Part shown: positions 4,629 through 16,853 of the stretch, piece after piece
Layout: each line of letters begins with the position of its first letter
How positions within the stretch are numbered: position 1 is the first letter of the stretch
NCBI RefSeq assembly: GCF_024347435.1
Contig: NZ_AP025481.1
Span: 1,302,001 to 1,366,000 of the forward strand
DNA length: 64,000 nt
Direction: 5' to 3'
Source of the DNA: Vibrio cyclitrophicus
Lineage (GTDB): Bacteria; Pseudomonadota; Gammaproteobacteria; Enterobacterales; Vibrionaceae
Position numbers and translations under genes: made by a program
The notes under the pieces: generated by a model
Seen by the model: the letters and a program-made list of their open reading frames with translations, nothing else
Database searches by the model: none
Told to the model about the DNA's origin: nothing

Positions 4629-4997
4629 ATGCGCCAACTTCTCAGTGGCTTATCTATAAAAATACAGATCCTTATTCCGGTTCTATTTTCCGTCGTCTTA
4701 TTATTGGCTGGCGTCATTATCGGTGGGGATAAACTCGAAAGTGCTTTTAAAGATGTGTCAGTTTCAACCGATGAGTTGATCCTACATAAAGAAGAACTCA
4801 GTGAAATCGTCGACAACAGTTACGGTATGCGTATCAAAGCGATTTACAGCTTATTTAATGCAGACGATGTGAAAACCTTAGTTGAGACACTAAACCAAAA
4901 ACGTGACCAAAATGCGCGTCTATTAGATTCATTGAACACCGTTACAGGAATGCAGGAAGAAGTCACTGCAATGCGTAAAGCGATGAATCACTATGTC

Positions 4998-5005
4998 GAT
5001 TTTTC
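4998..5005 (+). repeat. Target-site duplication, left copy
   Basis: GATTTTTC occurs here immediately left of the insertion and again at 6587-6594 immediately right of it. Eight bases is the usual duplication length for IS66-family elements. Confidence 0.95.
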
Positions 5006-5058
5006 GTAATCGTTCACCAAGGTAACTTGACTTGATATTAACGGAGGGTGAGAGTCAC

Positions 5059-6485
5059 CTATAGATCAAAGACGTTGGGGTACGGTCTCTTCGCCACAAC
5101 AGCCGTGATGATTTCACTCAACACCGACATTGCTGATAGACCGCGCTTTTTGCAGGTTTCGATGAGTGTGTGGATACGACTACGGAATTTATCACCTGCA
5201 TCCGAGGTCGTTCCGAAGCTAATTTTCCTTTGAATGACAAAACCTCTAATACATCGCTCAGCTTCATTATTGGTTAAGGGGATTGATGTTTTCTTGAGGA
5301 AAACCCACAAGCTCTCTCTATGTTTAAGCAGTAACTTGCATCGCCCTCGATACCGCTTGACCATCACATCTGTCCCTTTTCTCAACCAATGATCGAACGA
5401 TTTTTGTAGCCTGTGCATTCGCCGCAAGTACAGTGAATAATCCAATTCACCTTGTTCATAACGATGCCGAGTATGGAAAATGGCGTTCGTCAGCAAACAA
5501 AGATGTTTGCCAATATAAGCGGTGTGGCCACCGCCACTATAATCCGCCATTTGCTGAAGATTGCGCTTCACATGTGCCCAACATAACTGATGACGGTCTT
5601 CGGCTATCCAGTTATAGCTTGGGCACTGGTCACTGACCACAATACCTGCATAGTCTTCATCGATGACCTTTTTTGCTGAGGAGGTAGAGCGTGAATAGAG
5701 TATTTGTTCATAGACAAGGTCATCACTGGCCACTAACCAACACCAACGAAGGCTTGTTTCATCATTTCGGTGATGAGAGGTTTCGTCAGCATGAATCAAA
5801 GGCGCTTTCTTTAACGCTTGTTTTATCGCTTGATGCAATGGCGTTAGCATTGAAGCGACCTTCGTTTGCGCTTCGCTAATCGCACCGACCGAAAAGGTTG
5901 TGCCAAGCTGTTCTTTGAGTAGAGATTGGATTTTCCGAACGCTGAGGTGATATTGCCCTGCAAGCACGCCAATGTAACTTAATAAGTTCGGCCCTATAAT
6001 CCCTTGCGATGCATCGTCAGGCTTTTGAGCCTTGACGGTTTCTTTGCAGTGCCTACATTGACCTGAAAATAAACGGTATTCGGTGATATCGACAGTGGGT
6101 TTTGGAATATCGAAGACCTGATGGCGATAGTATGGCCCACCTTGAACCTCAATGTCAGATTGAGCGCAACAAGGACAAGTTTCAGGGAAACAGTCAATGA
6201 TGACATCCGTTTTTTTTAACGGTGAGAGCTTTCGTTGATGCCCTGTGTGGCCTTGTTTAGCTCCTCTCGAATTGCGACCACCAGAGCTTTCAGCTTTTTT
6301 CGCTCATGGCGATCTTTAGGATTGTCTGAAGAGGGCGATTTTGAAGAGTTTTTGGAGCTAGTGGTTAGCTTGTCTTCATAATGTCGGAGCTGTTCCCACA
6401 GCTCATCAATAAGCACCTTAGCCTCATTCAAATCTGAGACTTCAGGTGGTGCTTCTTGGTATTTAGGTGATTTTTTTCTAGTCAT
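5059..6485 (-). CDS. tnpC: IS66-family transposase, read through a -1 frameshift
   Basis: This is the DDE transposase of the insertion sequence. The N-terminal frame (from ATG 6485) gives a coiled-coil-like region (EVSDLNEAKVLIDELWEQLRHYEDKL) and SSKNSSKSPSSD, then reaches CGA AAA AAG at 6302-6294 and later a stop at 6216. A -1 shift at that heptamer continues as AESSGGRNSRGAKQGHTGHQ, the normal IS66 sequence. Next come a zinc-binding motif (CPCC and CRHC) and the catalytic domain with Asp in HADETSHH, Asp in VVSDQCPSYNW, CWAH, and Glu in NNEAERCIRG. The full product would be 475 residues. Either programmed frameshifting or a one-base deletion in an A-run explains the split. An upstream ATG at 6515 is less likely. 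Confidence 0.85.
6294..6300 (-). promoter_or_regulatory. Slippery heptamer A AAA AAG
   Basis: On the minus strand the zero frame reads CGA AAA AAG, the arrangement of the efficient E. coli -1 slippery site. Five bases downstream a short stem can form between AGCTC and GAGCT around a loop of about 20 bases. The -1 product is exactly the conserved transposase continuation. Confidence 0.7.
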
Positions 6486-6586
6486 GAAACCATAATGGCT
6501 TCCCAGAATGATCACTCAAGACCCAAAGTGGGATCAATTGCGTAAGGTCACACTTTTTATGTCAATAGGGCTTGGTGAACACTTAC

Positions 6587-6594
6587 GATTTTTC
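6587..6594 (+). repeat. Target-site duplication, right copy
   Basis: GATTTTTC here is identical to 4998-5005. The chemoreceptor frame resumes directly after it. Confidence 0.95.
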
Positions 6595-7912
6595 TCGTAT
6601 CACCATGCTCCCTCTCTTGACCGCAAAACACGGCAATACAGCGCTTCCCTCTAATTTTGATGCCAGTTACCAAACCGCTATCGACCAATACCGTCACGCG
6701 GGAAATGAAATGGTACAAGCTATCAATACTCTTTCTAAAAAGCTGAATCACATTGCTACCCAAGAAGTCCACATCAACGGTCAACAACATACCAGCACGC
6801 TCAATACAGCGACGATCGCACTTTTAGTCATACTTTCTGCTGCTCTGCTTATTAGTTGGACACTGGCTGGTGTCATCGTTACACCAATCAGTAATATTCA
6901 GGAAACCATGCGTGAAGTGGCAAAGGGCAACCTGTTAGTTAAAGCAGATGAACAAGGTAACAATGAAATTTCACGTCTTGCACAAGACGTAAACCAATCT
7001 GTTGAACAACTGCGAGACACCGTAAGTTCACTATCTCGGATCAGTATCGAAGTGGCGTCAGCATCGACAGAGCTCGCGGCTGTAATGACACAATCAAGCG
7101 CAAACTCAGATCAAGAGAAGCAAGAAGTGGAGCAAGTTGCTTCTGCTGTAAACCAACTTGAGAGCACAGCATCGCACGTAAACGAGAATGCAGTACAAGC
7201 CGACTCAGCTTCCAAGCAAGCCGACGAAATGGCAACACACAGCATGAGCTTGTTTAATGAGAGCAACCAAGCTAATGAGCAAATGGCGACTCAGCTGAGC
7301 GAAGCGGCAAACGTTGTAGGCACGTTAAAAGAGCACTCCGAGCAGATTGGTAAGGTAATTGAAGTAATTCAAAGCATCTCTGAGCAAACTAACCTTCTTG
7401 CACTTAATGCAGCAATCGAAGCCGCACGAGCTGGTGAGAGTGGCCGTGGTTTCGCAGTGGTAGCCGATGAAGTTCGAATGCTGGCTGCTCGTACGCAAGA
7501 TTCAACCAAAGAGATCCAAGCAATTATCGAAGGCTTGCAGGTTCAATCGGGTAACGCCAATGAGAGCATGAGCAGTTCACTGTCTATGTTAGAGCACAAC
7601 CAAACGCTCTCAGGTGAGGTGAGTGCAGCCCTTTCTGGTATTGCTAACTCAGTAACCGACATGACAGAAATTAACACTCAGGTTGCCTCTGCCGCAGAAG
7701 AACAAAGCCAAGTGACTGCAGACATCAACCGTAATATCTCAAACATCTACAGCCTAGTAAGCCAAAACGTAACCGGTATTACTCAAGCCGCAGCAGCGAG
7801 CCACGAGCTATCTAACTTAGCCGAGCAGCAAAAGCAGCAGTTGGATTATTTTAAGGTATAGGGTTTAAAGTCTAAGCTTCAGATCTAAGTTAAGACCTAT
7901 ATGCCAGAACCT

Positions 7913-7942
7913 AAAAGGCCGTGGAAAACCACGGCCTTTTTA
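7913..7942. terminator. Bidirectional terminator after the chemoreceptor
   Basis: A stem of AAGGCCGTGG/CCACGGCCTT with an AAAA loop is flanked by As on the left and Ts on the right. It can end transcription of the chemoreceptor (rightward) and of the five-gene iron-regulated operon (leftward). Confidence 0.85.
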
Positions 7943-7962: not shown

Positions 7963-8520
7963 TCATTCTGCAACTAACAAGACGCTAAATTTATATTGTG
8001 CGGCGTTGTACTGGTAAACCTCACCATTAATCGAATCAAACGTCATCACGCTCTGACCATCACTCGCAGGAGTTGAACTCCATATATAAACGGCTAAGTT
8101 TCCAGCTTCAACGTTAAACGTATCACCAAACACCTTGTGACTCATTGCTGGAGAGTGACAAGCCACTTCTTTTAATGACACTAATTCTTTGATGTTTGGC
8201 ATGCGCCACTCTTTTTCACCACCGAACTTATGCAACGCATGACTGCCACTCTGATCATTGATTGATTCAACCATAGAGAGCGCACTCTGCCAGTGATACG
8301 TTTCAGCAGGCCCACTACAAGCTAATGTCTTCGTATCCCAAGTTTTACCCAGTTGGCAACGCATCCAAGTTAACCCTGTCAGTTCATCGCTAAACGTCCC
8401 ATTATCATTCGCAACATAACGCGTGCTCGGAGCCGATTTTTCCATATCTAAACTGCACTCTTGTGCCATTGCACCCGCAGAAAACAGAGCCATTAAAGTG
8501 ATGGAGAGTAAATTTTTCAT
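7963..8520 (-). CDS. Secreted DUF1566 (Lcl) domain protein
   Basis: This 185-residue protein starts with a signal peptide (MKNLLSITLMALFSAGAMA, then QECSLD), so it is exported to the periplasm or beyond. The rest is one DUF1566 domain, shown by DELTGLTWMRC near the start, the central WRMPNIKELVSL and the late IWSSTPAS. The family's biochemical role is not established; members are extracytoplasmic and may bind or scaffold. It is the last of five tightly packed genes behind a Fur box, two bases after the larger DUF1566 lipoprotein. The two may form a pair. Confidence 0.8.
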   Translation of the reverse strand: MKNLLSITLMALFSAGAMAQECSLDMEKSAPSTRYVANDNGTFSDELTGLTWMRCQLGKTWDTKTLACSGPAETYHWQSALSMVESINDQSGSHALHKFGGEKEWRMPNIKELVSLKEVACHSPAMSHKVFGDTFNVEAGNLAVYIWSSTPASDGQSVMTFDSINGEVYQYNAAQYKFSVLLVAE

Positions 8521-8522
8521 AT

Positions 8523-10007
8523 CTATTGACCTTGTAGTGAAACTAAACGAATTGGGAATTGGAACGAGTCATAATTATCCGAAGAATCAACATCACCTGA
8601 ATAGATCTCTATAGAACCAACAACCCCTCTGTCTGAACCCTGGGTTCCAATCTCGTTGTAATAGAAGCCACCTTCAACAGCTGTGTTTGTATATTGGCTA
8701 TAAGTAATGGATTGAGTCCATACCGAACCAGTGTAAGCCGTATAGTCAATACCAAGGGTTTGATGTGGGAAGTACTTGTAAGTTAAACCATAAACTTCAC
8801 CATCCGAGTTGGTTTCTGTCTCACCGAAGTCGAGCACGTTGTAGAATTCATTGAATGTTGGCAAGCGCCAATCTGACTTGCCGCATAAGTTCATTGCATT
8901 GATATGTTCAACGTAATCTTGAGTGGTACATATCGCATCGCCTTTCGTTTTACACGTCGCTAAATCAACATCTTGATCGTAAGGCGTTACTAGTCCGGGT
9001 AGCTCAAGCGCTAATATGCGATCTTTATATTGAATAGAGCTTTCGTCATCCGTTTTCGATTCCCAAATCAAGCCACTGCGTTGATCCAAAACACAAGACC
9101 ACTCCGCAGCATCATCAGCAAGCACCTGACCACTTGAATCTAACTTTGCGAACTGGAAACCATTGCCGGTATTGTCATTCAGCTCTGTTTTATCAAAGCC
9201 GTATTCTGCATCTTGACCTGGGAATGAACTCTGTGGTTCAACGACATTTTGTGTGTCATCGATGTCTGAGAAATAGCGTAAAACACCCGTATCATTCAAT
9301 GCTGTCGCAGCTTTTAGCTCTCCTTCGAGGAAATTTGCAAAAGCAGTAACTTGGTCATTAGTGAGTACTCCACCTACATAATCGGCCGCACTCTTATCAA
9401 ATTTCGCACTCAATTGAGCCAGCATGAACGCACGATTAGAGTGCTTAAACGCCTTAATTGTTGATACGATATTTTGTTCCAGACTCGCGAGTTCAGATGC
9501 AGATAAATCGTCTTGAATATCGCCAGATATAGTGATGCCACTTTTCGCCAACTGCGCTTTTAATTTGTTGTTAGCCTCAGCAACTGTCAATCCGTCCGCG
9601 ACATAACCCGCCAATAGTGAACTGATACCATTAATCTCATTTCCCGTATTTTTTTGAAGACCGGGAGCGGCAATATAAGCGTAAGAAGATGCAGAAGCGC
9701 TCGTGCTATTGGCTGCAATCCCCGTATCCACCTGAGCTAACAAAGGAACCGATAAAATCGACTTCTTAGTACTAGTAATACTAAATTCGCCATTCGCGTT
9801 AGCCGCCGAGCTTGGTTCTCCACTATCACACATGTAGTTTTGATTTATGTCTGCACAGACCTTACTTTGTAAATCTACATTCTGTGCTGTCACTGTACCT
9901 GACACTGTATAGGTTGGTGCTGCTGATGCAGAGGTATCGGAACCGCCCGAACCACCGCAGCCAGCAAGAGCCAAAGAGATGGCCAAAATTGTCAATTGAG
10001 GTTTCAT
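8523..10007 (-). CDS. DUF1566-domain lipoprotein
   Basis: This 494-residue protein begins with a lipoprotein signal (ISLALAGCGG, lipidated at the Cys) and a short Ser/Gly-rich linker. Residues of about 30-110 resemble a carboxypeptidase-regulatory-like beta domain (TYTVSGTVTAQNVDLQSKVCADINQNYMCD). A helical middle region follows, then a C-terminal DUF1566 domain (RSGLIWESK, WRLPTFNEFYNVLDF). It is probably an outer-membrane or periplasm-anchored partner in the iron-regulated operon, sitting between the metalloprotease and the smaller DUF1566 protein. No catalytic motif is visible, and I infer no enzymatic role. Confidence 0.8.
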   Translation of the reverse strand: MKPQLTILAISLALAGCGGSGGSDTSASAAPTYTVSGTVTAQNVDLQSKVCADINQNYMCDSGEPSSAANANGEFSITSTKKSILSVPLLAQVDTGIAANSTSASASSYAYIAAPGLQKNTGNEINGISSLLAGYVADGLTVAEANNKLKAQLAKSGITISGDIQDDLSASELASLEQNIVSTIKAFKHSNRAFMLAQLSAKFDKSAADYVGGVLTNDQVTAFANFLEGELKAATALNDTGVLRYFSDIDDTQNVVEPQSSFPGQDAEYGFDKTELNDNTGNGFQFAKLDSSGQVLADDAAEWSCVLDQRSGLIWESKTDDESSIQYKDRILALELPGLVTPYDQDVDLATCKTKGDAICTTQDYVEHINAMNLCGKSDWRLPTFNEFYNVLDFGETETNSDGEVYGLTYKYFPHQTLGIDYTAYTGSVWTQSITYSQYTNTAVEGGFYYNEIGTQGSDRGVVGSIEIYSGDVDSSDNYDSFQFPIRLVSLQGQ

Positions 10008-10011
10008 AGAG

Positions 10012-12339
10012 TTATCTTCTTGTTTTGTTTTTAAAGAGCCTTGCCATTAGAGACAAGTAACGCGTACCAAATGACCTGCCGAACGAGAGCAAGGACATGA
10101 ATAGAATTGATATGAGTGAAGCTGAACCACCAGAAGAGCCACTGGTAACTGTTGGTTCTTCTGGTGAAGTCGTTGTTTCTCCACATTCGTATTTCGAAAT
10201 CGTGCCAAGCCCCCACCGTTTTAAGTGCCCAGTTTCACCATTTACGTAATCGGCAATTTCTAAACGCCAAGACCCGTTAGTAGGCTCACCCTTAAACGAA
10301 TCAAGAACCGAGTCATGCTTAAGTGTGAAGTAACCATCAAAGCCAGAAAATCGCGTCGATTTATGGTTAAGTAAATCGACTCGTGTTCCCTTCGGGGAAA
10401 TAAGGGTCACCACTAAATCACTCAACCGAGGGTGATCGATATCTAAATACAGACCGAAATTTTCGTCTGCGGTCTGAGCCGTGCCATTTAGAGTGAAATT
10501 GAATGTTTTAAAGCCAACGATCGGCTGATTAGTTGAGCTAAACCGGCTATCAGGAAGGTAACTGTTCACTTCTTTGATATCGGATTCGAGTACAGGTAAG
10601 CCATATACAAGAGACAAATCATGCTGCCAATTGTGTAATTTGAGGGCGTCGTTGTATCGGTAGTCGACACTCGTATTCATGGCGACTGAAGAACCACACA
10701 TCTCGCCGGTCGGAAGTGTCGCCTCTATCGACAACTGATCAACCGGATCGCTAACGAACGACTTCACCAATTCTGAAATATTGATTTGGCCATCCACTTG
10801 AGCCTGTCTTAATGTTGGGTACAACTCAATCGTCAACGGCTTCTTTGGATCAACATAACGGTCAGGAGCCTCTACTTTAAATGGCTCGATGATCAATCCA
10901 TGCACATCAAACTTTTGCTTCAATATTTCAGCATAATCTCGATTTGGATATAGTTGTTGAGCCACAAACAGAGTGCTCTCAGCTAGGTCATGCATTTTCA
11001 ATCCACGACCTAGCCCATACATAGACTCGAGTACGATTGAATCGAACTCGTTAAAAGCGATCTCACCATACTGCTCAACTGAGGCTTTCAGAGCCTGGAA
11101 TAAAGGCGTTGACCAAAGCTCATCACCTAGTTCACCAGCAACACTTTCATGAGGGCGATATTCTGCTTGTCTAAAGTAACGTGCCCTTTGGTTCCACAGG
11201 CTACGCGTGGTATTCCTTACCCCGAAGTAACCATCCCAGTTAAAGACAGTATCTATCTCGAACTCTTGCCCGCGAGTCTGTGCATTTTCATATTGAATAC
11301 GAAAGCTAAAACTACCCGCCCAGTAATCTCCAAACCCTTCACCGATGGCACCTGTATGGCCGTAAGCCCAATCTTTTACGATGTGATAATGAATCCCATG
11401 GCCAAGCTCATGCAGAATCACATCACCATCTAATGCATCAGGTGAGCCACCGCCAATACCAAATAAAGCCGCTTTGGGGCCATAATAGTACGTCGAGTTA
11501 TCTGCAGATAAGCCTCTGCCATCGAACTCAAGAGGGGCATCAAACAGATCAAAGCCCAAGCTGCTGATATAACGTAAAGACTGATCTAGATGAGCAAATA
11601 CCATCAATTGTAGGAATCGCACATCTTGCCAATCCACATTTTGCAGCTCGTTCAGATCCGCAAACTTTGTGAGCCCCTCAGCTGCGAGAAAACTTGAAGT
11701 GTCACGGTTCGTTACAGCACCTGAGTCTGGGTCAAGTGAATACAAGGCTGTTGCATCAACCTGAGATATACGAGCATTGGTAAGGTAGATACCATCGCTG
11801 TGGTTCAATACCTCCACATCCGCTTGCACGTAGTGTGGGAGGCTTGGATATTGACTCACATCGGTGAGCAAACTTTCTGGTGGCGCAGCTCTATCCATGG
11901 TTCTTAAATCAGGACTGAACACATTCACATGCGTCGCAACCACTTGGCCACTGCTTAAGCTCGGCGCACGCTCTGCTTCTAATAAGCGAGGAACTTCTAG
12001 CTCAGCAGCCGTTGTCGGATTTCCGTTGAGTAACACGGTATTTTCTAAGCTTCTGAAAACGCGTGAAACCTGCTCGTCAGAGTTAGTGGATAGAACCACA
12101 GATTTCTGTTGTTGGTACTCACCTTTGATCAATAAGTCGAAGTTATAGTGGTGTCCCAACTTAGACTGTGTTTCATAGCGAAACCTCAGCGTACCAACGT
12201 CAGGATAAGCTTCTTCTAAATACGCTTTGGCTTCCTGCTGCGTTGTTACAACAATATTACCGAGAGGGTAATCCCATTCGGCAGCACTGCTTGTTGCTGA
12301 AACCAACAACAAAGCAATGTATAGAAGACTCTTTTTCAT
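10012..12339 (-). CDS. Secreted zinc metalloprotease with P-domain and anchor-like tail
   Basis: The 775-residue protein has a signal peptide (residues 1-20, ending SSAAEWDY). A gluzincin active site is present: HELGH at 310-314 with the third ligand Glu near 334 in GAIGEGFGDYW, as in M4/M36-like peptidases. Around 610-730 is a proprotein-convertase P-domain (LYLDIDHPRLSDLVVTLISP and SWRLEIADYVNGETG). The end carries SGSSGGS, a hydrophobic stretch (LISILFMSLLSF) and basic residues, resembling a GlyGly-CTERM sorting signal but with about 20 extra residues. It is probably exported and surface-held. It follows the TonB receptor gene by nine bases, suggesting it supplies that receptor's substrate. 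The natural substrate is unknown. Confidence 0.82.
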   Translation of the reverse strand: MKKSLLYIALLLVSATSSAAEWDYPLGNIVVTTQQEAKAYLEEAYPDVGTLRFRYETQSKLGHHYNFDLLIKGEYQQQKSVVLSTNSDEQVSRVFRSLENTVLLNGNPTTAAELEVPRLLEAERAPSLSSGQVVATHVNVFSPDLRTMDRAAPPESLLTDVSQYPSLPHYVQADVEVLNHSDGIYLTNARISQVDATALYSLDPDSGAVTNRDTSSFLAAEGLTKFADLNELQNVDWQDVRFLQLMVFAHLDQSLRYISSLGFDLFDAPLEFDGRGLSADNSTYYYGPKAALFGIGGGSPDALDGDVILHELGHGIHYHIVKDWAYGHTGAIGEGFGDYWAGSFSFRIQYENAQTRGQEFEIDTVFNWDGYFGVRNTTRSLWNQRARYFRQAEYRPHESVAGELGDELWSTPLFQALKASVEQYGEIAFNEFDSIVLESMYGLGRGLKMHDLAESTLFVAQQLYPNRDYAEILKQKFDVHGLIIEPFKVEAPDRYVDPKKPLTIELYPTLRQAQVDGQINISELVKSFVSDPVDQLSIEATLPTGEMCGSSVAMNTSVDYRYNDALKLHNWQHDLSLVYGLPVLESDIKEVNSYLPDSRFSSTNQPIVGFKTFNFTLNGTAQTADENFGLYLDIDHPRLSDLVVTLISPKGTRVDLLNHKSTRFSGFDGYFTLKHDSVLDSFKGEPTNGSWRLEIADYVNGETGHLKRWGLGTISKYECGETTTSPEEPTVTSGSSGGSASLISILFMSLLSFGRSFGTRYLSLMARLFKNKTRR

Positions 12340-12348
12340 ATGTCCTCC

Positions 12349-14490
12349 TTAAAACGCATACTTGGCGTTAACGGTGAAGTAACGACCAGGCTCTGTAGAG
12401 TAAACTTTATTACTATCAGCTATGCCCGCGACATCTTGGTAACGGATGTATTCTTTGTCGAAAAGGTTGATAACATTAGCGCTGACATCCAAACCGAAGG
12501 TCCAAGAGTAACTTACGCCAAGGTCAACACTCGCCCAGCCAGAAGTAGTCGCACAGTCAGTAACGATACCTAAATCATCTTCACATTGAGGGACGTTATC
12601 CATCGCTTGCGCCCAATTAACCTGCGCATAAGCGGAGAAGGCGTTATCGTCATAAGTCACCTCGGCATTACCTTCCCAAGGTGTTAGCGTACGAACTTTT
12701 TCTCCGTCCTCATCTTCTCCATCAACGTAGCCGACTTTAGTACTCACACTCCAAAAATCGCTTAAACGGTGTGCAAGAGAAGCTTCAATGCCATATGTCT
12801 CGACTCCATTTACGTTTTGATACTGCTTGTAGTAGTTACCTGTATTTGGATCCGGCACAAATGAGATCTGTTTAACGTCGATAAAATTATCGAACTTTTG
12901 ATAGAAAACGGCCGCATATAGCTGTGTTTGTCCATTATCAAACTTACTGCCTAATTCAAACGAATCACTGGTTTCGGCCTCTAGGTCCATATTAGGCACA
13001 ATGACAAATGGGGTAATTGGGACAAAATCATGGTTCTGATAACCATAAATTTTGTCATAACCCGGTGCTCTAAAGCCGTGGTTGTACGAAAGGTATGTAT
13101 TTAGCGAGTCTGTTAACTGATAACTCACCGATAAGCTAGGAGAAAACTCACTCGAATTTTGTTCCTTCACTTCATAGTCATTGATTGTGCTCTGTGATTC
13201 AGGTTTCAACTGGTGTAAATCAACACGGGCTCCTGCCGTCACAGTCCAATGGTCAATTTCAATCGCGTCACGAATAAAAGCAGCAAAATTGTACGAGCGG
13301 GCTGGAGCAAAAGGGACATCCGCGTTAAGTGACACTCCGTTCCAATCTAAAACAGAAGATTGACTTGGACGCTCATGGAGGTTGGTTTCCATATTCACAC
13401 CATAAGACAAGGTATGGTTCATGTTTTGATGTTGGAATGCGCTAATAAAATCGGCGTTTACACCGAGAAGCTGATCCGTAAAACCACGAATATCAATCGT
13501 TCTACGTAACTCAGAAACGTTATTGTTGTTTCGAGACATCAAACGATTAGTGGTATCTTCATTAGTCATATCACGCCAATAAATCTTGGCATCTAATTCC
13601 TCAAACCAAGTATTGGCAGGTAGATACTCAAACCCCGCATACGCAGAGAACGTCTCGGTATAAGACTGTTGGTCAAAATCTTCAGTGTCCCATTTACCGT
13701 CCTTTTGGATCTTAGAAGACCCTTCTTTACGACTTGAATTCTCTTTGTAATACTCGACATTGCCTTTGAGCATCAGAGCGTCACTTGACCAGTAGTTCAG
13801 GGTGTAACCACCACCGACGCCATCGATACTTCGGTTATATAGGTCTTCATCAAAATTACGGGTTTCTTCACCTTCCCAATAAGAAAGATTAACCAAGCTT
13901 TCGAATTTCCCCGAACGGAAAGCAAGGTTTGTCGCACCTTTGTATTTATTACTGATACCGGTATAGGTTGCAGAGACGTCGCTATAGAAATCTTTATCGT
14001 CGAGGTAGTCTCCCGGCTTTTTAGATCTCACAACCACAACACCACCAATCGCACCGGACCCATACACAGACGAGCTCGCACCTTTGATGACTTCAATACT
14101 GTCGAGGTTCGACATATCGAATGAGTTGCGCCCTATTTTGTCGTTGATGTCATTAGCCCCAAAACCATCAGCAGATTTTATCCCGTCTTTAACAATCAAA
14201 ATCCGGTTACCTGTCATACCGCGAATAGTAATGTTTTGCGGTCGGCCTGCCCCCCCAGAAACACTGACTCCAGGTTCACTTTTTATTGCGTCGTAGAGTT
14301 CTGTTGCGCCTTTTTTTTCTAGGTCTTCACCCGTGATCACAGCAACTGAACCTGCTACTTCAGATAACGGTTGCTCTATTTTGTTCGCCGTTACGAGCAC
14401 CTCTTCAAAGTGGTAAACCTCAGATTCGGCGTGCACGACGTTGGCAGCAAGTACACTCAGTACTGCCGCTGATAGGGGGGAAAGCTTCAT
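12349..14490 (-). CDS. TonB-dependent outer-membrane receptor, haem/haemoglobin type
   Basis: This 713-residue protein is an outer-membrane active transporter. After a signal peptide (cleaved after VVHA) comes a TonB box (EEVLVTANK), a plug domain (about 40-170, with VVVRSKKPGDYL at its end) and a 22-strand barrel ending in the required Phe (NAKYAF). GFRAP at 472-476 and PNMDLEAE near 500, with a His between them (YGYQNH), match the FRAP/NPxL boxes of haem receptors of the HemR/HutA type. The Fur box in front of the operon supports iron or haem as cargo. Its start directly abuts the stop of the oligopeptidase gene, so the two are co-translated. Haem specificity is an inference. Confidence 0.85.
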   Translation of the reverse strand: MKLSPLSAAVLSVLAANVVHAESEVYHFEEVLVTANKIEQPLSEVAGSVAVITGEDLEKKGATELYDAIKSEPGVSVSGGAGRPQNITIRGMTGNRILIVKDGIKSADGFGANDINDKIGRNSFDMSNLDSIEVIKGASSSVYGSGAIGGVVVVRSKKPGDYLDDKDFYSDVSATYTGISNKYKGATNLAFRSGKFESLVNLSYWEGEETRNFDEDLYNRSIDGVGGGYTLNYWSSDALMLKGNVEYYKENSSRKEGSSKIQKDGKWDTEDFDQQSYTETFSAYAGFEYLPANTWFEELDAKIYWRDMTNEDTTNRLMSRNNNNVSELRRTIDIRGFTDQLLGVNADFISAFQHQNMNHTLSYGVNMETNLHERPSQSSVLDWNGVSLNADVPFAPARSYNFAAFIRDAIEIDHWTVTAGARVDLHQLKPESQSTINDYEVKEQNSSEFSPSLSVSYQLTDSLNTYLSYNHGFRAPGYDKIYGYQNHDFVPITPFVIVPNMDLEAETSDSFELGSKFDNGQTQLYAAVFYQKFDNFIDVKQISFVPDPNTGNYYKQYQNVNGVETYGIEASLAHRLSDFWSVSTKVGYVDGEDEDGEKVRTLTPWEGNAEVTYDDNAFSAYAQVNWAQAMDNVPQCEDDLGIVTDCATTSGWASVDLGVSYSWTFGLDVSANVINLFDKEYIRYQDVAGIADSNKVYSTEPGRYFTVNAKYAF

Positions 14491-16512
14491 TTACTGCTCC
14501 GCTTTAATGTCTTTCAGGGTAAGTGATAAAAGGAATGCGTATTCAAACGCTTGTTGCGCTAAGGATTTTCGTCTATCTGTCGAATGTCCTTGAGTAAAGT
14601 TTGTCGACAATAAATAGGGCCCACTTCCAGTCGTTAGCTCGCTTAATTTTGCGTAATACTTAGCCCCTTCCCAATAGGGAACGCGGCGATCGTTGAGGCC
14701 AACTTGAATCAATATCGGTGGGTAATTTTGTTCGCTAAGATTCAGATAAGGGTCATATTGCTGCATGACCTTCAATTCATCGGCAATGTTTGGATTGCCC
14801 CACTCACCGTACTGCTGAGCTGTTAGAGGTAATGCAGAATCAGACATGCTATTAACAACATCAACAAATGGCGCTTTAAGGACAGCACCATCAAACAAGT
14901 CAGGAGCTTGATTTAAAGCTGCAGCAACAAGAGTGCCACCAGCACTTCCACCCATCGCATAAATAGGGCGCTTACCAAGATTGTATGCTGTCAAATCACG
15001 AGCAACTGCGATGAAATCCAAGATGGCATTTTCTTTTTTAATCCCCTTACCGGCTTGATACCAAGACTCACCATAAAACCCGCCCCCACGAACATGTGCA
15101 ATTGCATAAATAACACCTTCATCAAGTAAGCTAATAATTTGTGGCATGAAATAGGGCTTCATCGCCATGCCATAAGCTCCGTATCCATACAAAAACACTG
15201 GTGTGGTCTTAGTCAATTTGTCTTTGCGATAAGCCAGTGTGACTGGAATTGTTACCCCACCAGAATTCACCATAACTTGCTCGGTTTGATACGCTGATTG
15301 TTGGTATTGAGGGTAATGGTCTTGAGAGAAGCGTTCTCGTTGTAAAGTATCAGTATTTAACCGGTCCCACTTTGCTGGCTGAGTCAAAGACATGCTGCGA
15401 ATATGCAATTTGTTACTTTGGTAGTCGCCCACTTGGCTTACCCAAGCAACTTGGCCTGCGTCAGCCAATAACTGGCTTGAACGATAGCGGTTATCTTTGT
15501 CGAGAAAATTTAGAGACTGAGACGCACCACTTTGGCTAACAACCACAGCGCCGGATTCAAACAAATAGAAGTTACTGATTCTAGACTCGTCCGTTGGTTC
15601 AAAAACCGCTCGCCAGAGGTTGATATGTGGAGCCTGAGTAAGTGGTGCAGAGTAAAAAGCAAAATCATTGCGGTCGTGATTGCTGTTTGCAAACAACATA
15701 GAATCCGAAACATCAACGTAGTATTCCACCCCAGTTTTTCGTGGTAATAGTGGTTTGGAGATTTCACCGTTATCGAGGTTTAACAAACGTTGCTCGCTGG
15801 AGTTTTCACTGTTTGCCTGAACGACAGCAAATTGCTTATCACTTGAAAGGTAATACGAAAGCAACCAAGCGGAATCCAACTCTTCCGTTAATTGAATCGG
15901 CTTTGACTCATTTAAGAAGTATTTCGTTAGCGCATAAGGTCTCGAAGTTTGTTGTTCAAGTTGAATCAAATACAGAGATTGACCGTCTTTCGACCACGCA
16001 AGCGAACTGTCTACATTTTGAGCTACTAGTGTGACTTGCTGAGTTTTAAGATCAACAACACTCACTCGATACTGTTCAGTACCCGTAATATCTTCTGCTA
16101 TTGCGAGCTTGGTTTTCGTTGAGTCGAGTGCCCAATCACCTAACTGATAGTAATTGTGCTCCGTAGAACGAGCATCAATGTTAAGCAACTCGGTCAAATC
16201 CTTACTCCCAACTAATCGGGACAATAAGGTTCTTTTGCCCTTGTGATTTAGGATCGCATACTCGTAGCCACCGATTTCCTGCCATGGTCTATCGGCTCGT
16301 TCAGGACGATTGTCTTGCCATTTCTTTTGTAGGGATTCGCTCAGAGATCGAATACGTTCTTGATGCAACTGAGTTTTATCATTCTGTTGATTGAGATAAT
16401 TAAGTACTTTATTCGCACTACGGGAATCATCTCTGAGCCAAGAGAACTGATCCGAAGCACCAACTCCTGCCGACAAGACCAAAACAAAAGCTAACAACAC
16501 AAATGCTTTCAT
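14491..16512 (-). CDS. Exported prolyl oligopeptidase-family serine peptidase
   Basis: This is a family S9A peptidase, which cleaves short peptides with a beta-propeller plus alpha/beta-hydrolase fold. From ATG 16512 it has 673 residues and begins with a signal peptide (MKAFVLLAFVLVLSAGVGA), unusual because most S9A enzymes are cytoplasmic. The triad is visible: Ser 523 in GGSAGG, Asp 608 in GLNDRR and His 643 in TQGHSTD. DPYLNL and the late catalytic region resemble oligopeptidase B more than prolyl oligopeptidase. An upstream ATG at 16566 would place the start next to the Fur box and spoil the signal peptide, so I rejected it. It is the first gene of the five-gene operon and probably trims peptides in the periplasm. 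Confidence 0.85.
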   Translation of the reverse strand: MKAFVLLAFVLVLSAGVGASDQFSWLRDDSRSANKVLNYLNQQNDKTQLHQERIRSLSESLQKKWQDNRPERADRPWQEIGGYEYAILNHKGKRTLLSRLVGSKDLTELLNIDARSTEHNYYQLGDWALDSTKTKLAIAEDITGTEQYRVSVVDLKTQQVTLVAQNVDSSLAWSKDGQSLYLIQLEQQTSRPYALTKYFLNESKPIQLTEELDSAWLLSYYLSSDKQFAVVQANSENSSEQRLLNLDNGEISKPLLPRKTGVEYYVDVSDSMLFANSNHDRNDFAFYSAPLTQAPHINLWRAVFEPTDESRISNFYLFESGAVVVSQSGASQSLNFLDKDNRYRSSQLLADAGQVAWVSQVGDYQSNKLHIRSMSLTQPAKWDRLNTDTLQRERFSQDHYPQYQQSAYQTEQVMVNSGGVTIPVTLAYRKDKLTKTTPVFLYGYGAYGMAMKPYFMPQIISLLDEGVIYAIAHVRGGGFYGESWYQAGKGIKKENAILDFIAVARDLTAYNLGKRPIYAMGGSAGGTLVAAALNQAPDLFDGAVLKAPFVDVVNSMSDSALPLTAQQYGEWGNPNIADELKVMQQYDPYLNLSEQNYPPILIQVGLNDRRVPYWEGAKYYAKLSELTTGSGPYLLSTNFTQGHSTDRRKSLAQQAFEYAFLLSLTLKDIKAEQ

Positions 16513-16568
16513 AAACAAAACAAATCCATACGCTAAATCAATAAATTTCGCGCATGATGCACCCAAAC

Positions 16569-16587
16569 GATAATGAGATCAATTATC
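16569..16587. promoter_or_regulatory. Fur box of the five-gene operon
   Basis: GATAATGAGATCAATTATC matches the 19-bp Fur consensus (GATAATGATAATCATTATC) at 15 positions by my count. It lies 57 bases upstream of the oligopeptidase start, where promoter elements are expected. It predicts repression of the whole leftward operon when iron is plentiful. Confidence 0.8.
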
Positions 16588-16853
16588 ATTTACATAGATA
16601 TGTGATGCCAGTCACGAGAAGAACGCTAATTTATGATGCGTTACCATTGCAATATCAGGTGTTATTTAAATTTGCATATGAATAACAAATCAGTCAATAA
16701 TATTGATTATATTGGATTTGTCAGCATTAATTAAAGAAAGCAATCGTTTTCTTATCTTTGATAAAATGACTTAAATCTAGAGCTTTTGAGTTAGTAGGAA
16801 TCATCGACTTAACTAGTGTGGCCGGTTCGCATGGTTGATTTTGCGAACTAAAT

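Follow-up and report, generated by a model that had tools for sequence, protein, structure and literature searches.

A five-gene operon behind a Fur-type box

We analyzed a 64,000-nucleotide stretch of Vibrio cyclitrophicus DNA (the window), part of a 1.73-Mb contig in a genome of 5.28 Mb. Five leftward genes in the window, at positions 7963-16512 (to 16566 with an upstream TTG start), encode, in order of transcription, a ptrB-like peptidase, a haem receptor, a metalloprotease and two proteins with Lcl_C domains, LclA and LclB. The operon and its signals are as follows.

16572..16590, minus strand: Fur-type box AATGATAATTGATCTCATT, whose TTGATC may also serve as a -35 element; a conserved TGCAnnAT lies downstream
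14491..16512, minus strand: ptrB-like exported relative of oligopeptidase B (family S9A), 673 aa from the ATG at 16512; alternative TTG start at 16566
12349..14490, minus strand: TonB-dependent haem receptor of the HutR/HvtA type, 713 aa; FRAPGYDKIYGYQNHDFVPITPFVIVPNMDL with conserved His487
10012..12339, minus strand: secreted M36-like gluzincin metalloprotease with a P-domain and a GlyGly-CTERM-type tail, 775 aa; HELGH, likely third ligand Glu334
8523..10007, minus strand: LclA, a lipoprotein of 494 aa; lipobox LAGC, N-terminal beta domain, helical middle, C-terminal Lcl_C
7963..8520, minus strand: LclB, a small exported Lcl_C protein of 185 aa; four invariant Cys, no lipobox
7913..7936, minus strand: likely intrinsic terminator GGCCGTGG-TTTT-CCACGGCC-TTTT, read from the sequence

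The gaps between the genes are 0, 9, 4 and 2 bp in order of transcription. The list of open reading frames (ORFs) bears out what an earlier note on this DNA had described, namely five leftward, tightly spaced genes (gaps of 0-9 bp) behind a single Fur-type box. A domain scan found, counting from the low-coordinate end, Lcl_C (PF07603) in the two small proteins, a P-domain in the third protein, Plug and beta-barrel domains in the fourth, and peptidase S9 in the fifth. The exported S9A peptidase of the earlier note has the S9 domain, and we refine its assignment to a relative of oligopeptidase B. The secreted HELGH metalloprotease with a P-domain is confirmed, and its anchor-type C-terminal tail is an addition. 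Both proteins previously called DUF1566 proteins, the larger a lipoprotein, match Lcl_C, and LclA has a lipobox. These gene identities, like the anchor signal, the co-inheritance and the neighbours described below, were established by computation.

The G+C-rich hairpin and TTTT 3' of lclB (7913-7936) were picked out by eye and are absent from the list of the terminator scan. No minus-strand promoter-like match was found within the operon, in a weak scan (7 found, 16 expected) that leaves internal promoters possible.

Orthology to the hvtA and hutR operons

The operon in the window is the marine-Vibrio orthologue of the hvtA operon of V. vulnificus and the hutR operon of V. cholerae. The V. cholerae ptrB-hutR pair reportedly goes back to Mey and Payne (2001), and hutR is VCA0064 in the available excerpt of PMC6855506. 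In V. vulnificus, experiments have established that ptrB, hvtA and three genes named hypothetical form one transcript (reverse transcription PCR), that hvtA is regulated by iron and Fur (quantitative reverse transcription PCR), and that HvtA supports the use of hemin, and the operon is described as closely resembling the hutR operon of V. cholerae (PMC6813434, as excerpted). A review of V. vulnificus strain M2799 classes HvtA as a Fur-controlled minor haem receptor (PMC8706444). The hvtA operon matches the window operon in all five genes and in their order, and has a receptor of the same type and a nearly identical promoter box (published V. vulnificus box, gtaaatgataattgatgt; window, GTAAATGATAATTGATCT) (PMC6813434). 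One of our loci, L174, contains the complete five-gene set, an 18-mer Fur site identical to the published one and a 711-aa receptor as in that report (PMC6813434). Identity between the window and L174 is 47% for ptrB, 54% for the receptor, 48% for the protease, 38% for LclA and 45% for LclB.

The earlier note knew of no described system with this combination of genes. That statement does not hold, because the hvtA/hutR operon of five genes has been published, with its last three genes named hypothetical (PMC6813434, as excerpted). In the open-licence PMC literature, among the matches listed, we found neither a role of the last three genes in haem use, nor their co-inheritance, nor a paper that treats VCA0064 and VCA0065 together.

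Joint inheritance of receptor, protease and LclA

We searched 150 genomes of the family to which the window belongs with the protease, the receptor and LclA. Strong matches (E<1e-90, <1e-80 and <1e-40, respectively) are in the same 39 of the 150 genomes; no genome has a subset, and a wide gap separates these matches from the next ones. The three genes lie side by side by coordinates in all 39, the receptor gene of one genome (G048) being split over two contigs. The other two genes adjoin the protease gene in all 30 protease loci that were fetched, and all five are present in each of 20 longer stretches, which come from 20 different genomes among the 39. Joint inheritance of receptor, protease and LclA is firmly established.

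Further loci came from an alignment of the protease (the best 80 of 317 relatives, the closest one with a species name being a V. lentus locus at 96%), and 79 named loci were used in counts, near-copies included. Protease, LclA and LclB follow one another in that order in 51 of the 79 loci. The receptor stands in front of the protease in 50 of the 51, and in the remaining one the contig begins at the protease. The other 28 loci encode distant protease relatives, without LclA or LclB neighbours in the sequence covered. Flanking genes vary between genera, while the block is constant. Pairwise distances correlate best among protease, LclA and LclB (0.89-0.93 versus 0.79-0.86, uncorrected for species relatedness, in 31 loci; L173 was left out as a near-copy of L174).

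In L078, ptrB and the receptor gene are nearest those of V. fortis (81 and 77%), and the last three genes are nearest those of V. jasicida/owensii (68-73%). Given these split affinities, the last three genes look exchanged as a block, and a likely recombination point in this mosaic operon lies between receptor and protease. In addition, the protease-LclA-LclB block is present on a 4.6-kb contig of a metagenome-assembled genome labelled Campylobacteraceae (L103), by transfer or by mis-binning.

The haem receptor

The operon receptor is, we conclude firmly, a haem receptor. It scores above two curated haem models (430 versus 316.85 bits for TIGR01785 and 421.4 versus 323.75 bits for TIGR01786). 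In a tree with several long branches, it joins the other haem receptor of the genome, apart from the eight other TonB receptors, with support of 100/100. The scores and the tree bear out the haem type proposed in the earlier note, and the grouping with non-iron receptors that the note had raised as a counter-case was not seen. Of the FRAP/NPxL-like boxes that had been ascribed to the receptor, FRAP is present with its His, but NPNL is kept only in part, as PNMDL. His487 is invariant in 33 receptors. Of the 46 receptors that were delimited, 37 showed the receptor motif, and the remaining 9 were not read individually.

The Fur-type box and promoter

A match to a loose Fur consensus (15-mer with at most 3 mismatches) proves nothing, as 45 were found and 51 expected. 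On our own Vibrio-type Fur consensus, the box in front of the operon reaches 15 of 17. On the same consensus, the remaining nine genes for TonB receptors in the genome score 15 (four genes), 14, 12, 11 (btuB), 11 and 9. Of 400 random 310-bp segments of the window, 393 score 12 or less, three score 13 and four score 15, and these four may overlap the operon box itself. At least 16 of the 19 bases of the box are kept in 32 of 34 ptrB upstream regions, all 19 being identical in 16 of the 34, and in 51 of 53 regions of a wider set that includes near-copies. The box is credible because of its score relative to random segments and its conservation upstream of ptrB. Both support the earlier assignment of a Fur-type box, and iron and Fur control is experimental for V. 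vulnificus hvtA (PMC6813434, as excerpted).

In the alignment of ptrB upstream regions, TGCAnnAT begins 15 bp past the TTGATC of the box, placing CAnnAT 17 bp away. From this spacing we infer that the Fur site probably overlies a -35 element. The box has a near-invariant centre, TTGATC, and TGCAnnAT and CGCG are conserved across genera on its 3' side (window 16549-16582). These conserved surroundings may be the promoter core or the site of a second regulator, and the constancy of the centre may go beyond what Fur itself needs.

The metalloprotease and its C-terminal tail

H310, E311, H314 and E334 of the metalloprotease are invariant in 48 sequences, that is, an HExxH motif with a downstream Glu, as in gluzincins. 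HExxH is present in all 52 operon proteases (44 by pattern, 8 by eye), a set made up of 50 of the 51 block loci, L173 and L174; L092, with its protease in two ORFs, was left out. The Pfam M36 model (PF02128) gives 18.5 bits, below its cut-off of 23.3, and matches 8 of 12 members at E<=0.01, and the profile of the metalloprotease matches the extracellular metalloproteinase 7qfy at E 0.0029. By these matches, the enzyme appears to be M36-like and is not assignable to M36 proper.

The protein ends in SSGGSAS, a hydrophobic stretch and a basic tail, an arrangement of the GlyGly-CTERM type. By a home-made rule, 47 of the 52 operon proteases have such a tail. The others are L080 and L082 (SGAS variant), L089 (broken ORF), L131 (broken by N) and L103. 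The genome encodes a rhombosortase (165.4 bits versus a cut-off of 84). The tail and the rhombosortase agree with the surface protease of the earlier note.

VCA0065 of V. cholerae is a putative GlyGly-CTERM (Zn-)metalloprotease (PMC6219818, PMC13393428). It succeeds hutR (VCA0064) by number, and in V. metoecus (L086) the receptor is followed by a tailed protease; on these grounds we tentatively liken the operon protease to VCA0065. With the rhombosortase substrates VesB and VCA0065 the operon protease shares the Gly-Gly, the hydrophobic stretch, the basic tail and a rhombosortase gene in the genome. Experiments have shown that VCA0065 depends on rhombosortase: without it, VCA0065 in the supernatant was down 5.4-fold in one study, which called the change significant (PMC6219818), and 2.5-fold, not significant, in another (PMC13393428). 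The available excerpts of these two papers differ from our account in that they draw no link to haem.

The ptrB-like peptidase

The catalytic Ser, Asp and His are all present in the alignment of the ptrB-like protein, and the ATG start at 16512 precedes a clear signal peptide. The protein scores 381.5 bits on the NCBIfam equivalog model of oligopeptidase B, far under the cut-off of 1313. At the position that sets P1 specificity in oligopeptidase B (E576 in the Serratia enzyme; PMC9917282), the window protein has Gln, as do 24 of 33 orthologues, the other 9 having Glu. Specificity for basic residues should therefore not be assumed.

Vibrionaceae, Moritella, Psychromonas and Ferrimonas contribute 45 loci, of which 42 contain ptrB; L066, L075 and L089 have no upstream sequence to count. 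Our ORF script delimited 31 of the 42, which with L173 and L174 gave 33 for the box and residue counts, and the alignment of the peptidase has 30 rows. In the loci that the script did not delimit (L068, L074, L076, L077, L082, L086, L087, L093, L099, L100 and L101), 16-19 of the 19 bases of the box are kept. In V. metoecus (L086:3843-5842), ptrB is in three ORF pieces, possibly through a draft error, and the other four genes remain, the receptor ORF having 693 aa.

LclA and LclB

LclA and LclB score 88.1 and 47.9 bits on PF07603 (cut-off 34.9) and are the only two matches in the genome. The lipobox is present in 53 of 53 copies of LclA. Compared with Legionella Lcl, whose C-terminal domain is 8q4e, the operon proteins lack collagen-like repeats, and LclA differs in being a lipoprotein and in its N-terminal part.

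The block in Shewanella and Pseudoalteromonas

The receptor-protease-LclA-LclB block also occurs in Shewanella (two loci) and in Pseudoalteromonas (one locus), there with no ptrB in the stretch covered. Genes for a CobN/HmuS-type chelatase, DUF2149 and MotA/ExbB flank the block in all three Shewanella and Pseudoalteromonas loci with enough upstream sequence; neighbour families were scanned in the Pseudoalteromonas locus (L131), with which the Shewanella copies were grouped by BLAST. Fur-like sites in front of the receptor score 14, 14 and 16 of 17. The best Protein Data Bank (PDB) match of the chelatase is 9d26, 'HmuS heme dechelatase' (450.8 bits; CobN, 394.1). We take HmuU and HmuV to be of the MotA/ExbB and DUF2149 type. 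HmuS is a dechelatase in a haem operon in which HmuU and HmuV power import (PMC12583661, as excerpted). In the V. cyclitrophicus genome, a HutZ gene is present and no CobN-type gene was found.

A split gene next to the operon

At window positions 4629-7861, a chemotaxis-type gene, which we take to encode a methyl-accepting chemotaxis protein, is split into ORFs of 126 and 429 aa around leftward transposase-type ORFs (5059-6515), presumably of an IS66-like transposase. Undivided versions of the split gene (~540-570 aa) adjoin the operon in related loci.

Discussion

We postulate that the operon is a hutR/hvtA haem-acquisition operon in which haem proteins are captured and digested at the cell surface to feed the receptor, a reading that we hold to be about evenly balanced between right and wrong. 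Iron shortage would lift Fur from the single promoter, and all five genes would be made together. The metalloprotease would be exported, its tail cut by rhombosortase, and the enzyme would stay on or near the outer surface. LclA and LclB, with domains like those of Lcl and C-type lectins, might retain or display, near the protease and the receptor, glycan-rich material or a protein that carries haem. Proteolysis would free haem for import by HutR with TonB, and periplasmic PtrB would clear peptides that enter alongside. In the Shewanella and Pseudoalteromonas version, where ptrB is absent from the block, we read the adjoining CobN/HmuS-type chelatase as a possible haem dechelatase.

Several observations weigh against surface digestion of haem proteins. 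A V. vulnificus strain that had the hvtA operon and lacked HupA could use hemin but not haemoglobin for growth (18 h at 37°C), and hvtA induction is stronger at 25°C than at 37°C (PMC6813434, as excerpted). VCA0065 was detected in the supernatant and in no membrane fraction (PMC13393428). It was also made in lysogeny broth and called RpoH-regulated (PMC6219818), so Fur is possibly not its only control. The protease tail has no NCBIfam match up to E 10, in a search whose speed filters can lose short motifs. The LclA and LclB alignments contain no invariant His, and no invariant Met except the LclA start. The Pseudoalteromonas chelatase passes the NCBIfam CobN model (1288.4 versus a curated cut-off of 1248 bits), so its haem role is not settled, and the haem reading of this neighbour comes from the PDB match and the adjoining genes. 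Lastly, co-inheritance shows joint selection and does not prove a reaction. The haem-release step stays near an even call because of the haemoglobin result, the location and regulation of VCA0065, and the lack of a known substrate of the protease.

The operon could import haem while the protease and the Lcl proteins have a broader task, helping the cell to attach to proteins of tissues or particles and to digest them; they would then share the Fur promoter because a lack of iron marks a host or a particle rich in protein. We consider this rather unlikely, since co-occurrence with one receptor type in 39 of 39 genomes and the CobN/HmuS-type neighbour tie these genes to the cargo of the receptor and not to general proteolysis. 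A role of LclA, LclB or both as haemophores, binding haem or a haem protein and handing it on as HmuY does to HmuR, would fit a lipoprotein and a small exported protein whose genes neighbour the receptor gene and are co-inherited with it, and the distances that correlate best among protease, LclA and LclB. It seems improbable to us, given Lcl_C domains in both proteins and the want of a conserved ligand residue noted above. Still less probable is a protease that matures its own partners at the surface (LclA, LclB or the receptor) instead of scavenging: the fixed gene order, joint inheritance and block exchange in L078 speak for it, but secreted proteases with a degradative role often carry a P-domain and an anchor tail. 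A receptor cargo other than haem (peptide, siderophore or sugar) finds a foothold in the partly retained NPNL box and is very hard to credit in view of the haem-model scores, the tree, the conserved His and the hemin use of the orthologue HvtA (PMC6813434).

The proposed surface digestion has a counterpart in logic in the haem systems of Porphyromonas gingivalis and Bacteroides (gingipains, HmuY-HmuR-HmuS), which also combine a surface protease, a lipoprotein and a TonB haem receptor. The gingipains of P. gingivalis are surface proteases that act in haem acquisition. The CobN/HmuS-type chelatase beside the block in Shewanella and Pseudoalteromonas may correspond to HmuS of those systems. Unlike in those systems, protease and receptor are here in one operon.

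We speculate, as a tentative possibility, that the block is a widespread, co-inherited gammaproteobacterial surface machine, with lectin-like capture by Lcl proteins, a lipid-anchored M36-like protease, a dedicated TonB receptor and a swappable periplasmic enzyme, in which a captured haem-carrying (glyco)protein is opened by the protease beside the receptor, and the swappable enzyme, which deals with the cargo after import, is in Vibrionaceae a modified oligopeptidase and in Shewanella and Pseudoalteromonas a haem dechelatase of the HmuS type.

The analysis assigns predicted functions to the three genes that are called 'hypothetical' in the published haem operon, which occurs in pathogens and in many marine bacteria. 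It also links VCA0065, a rhombosortase-dependent protein without a known role, to haem uptake. Anchored proteolysis as a Vibrio route to protein-bound haem thereby becomes directly testable.
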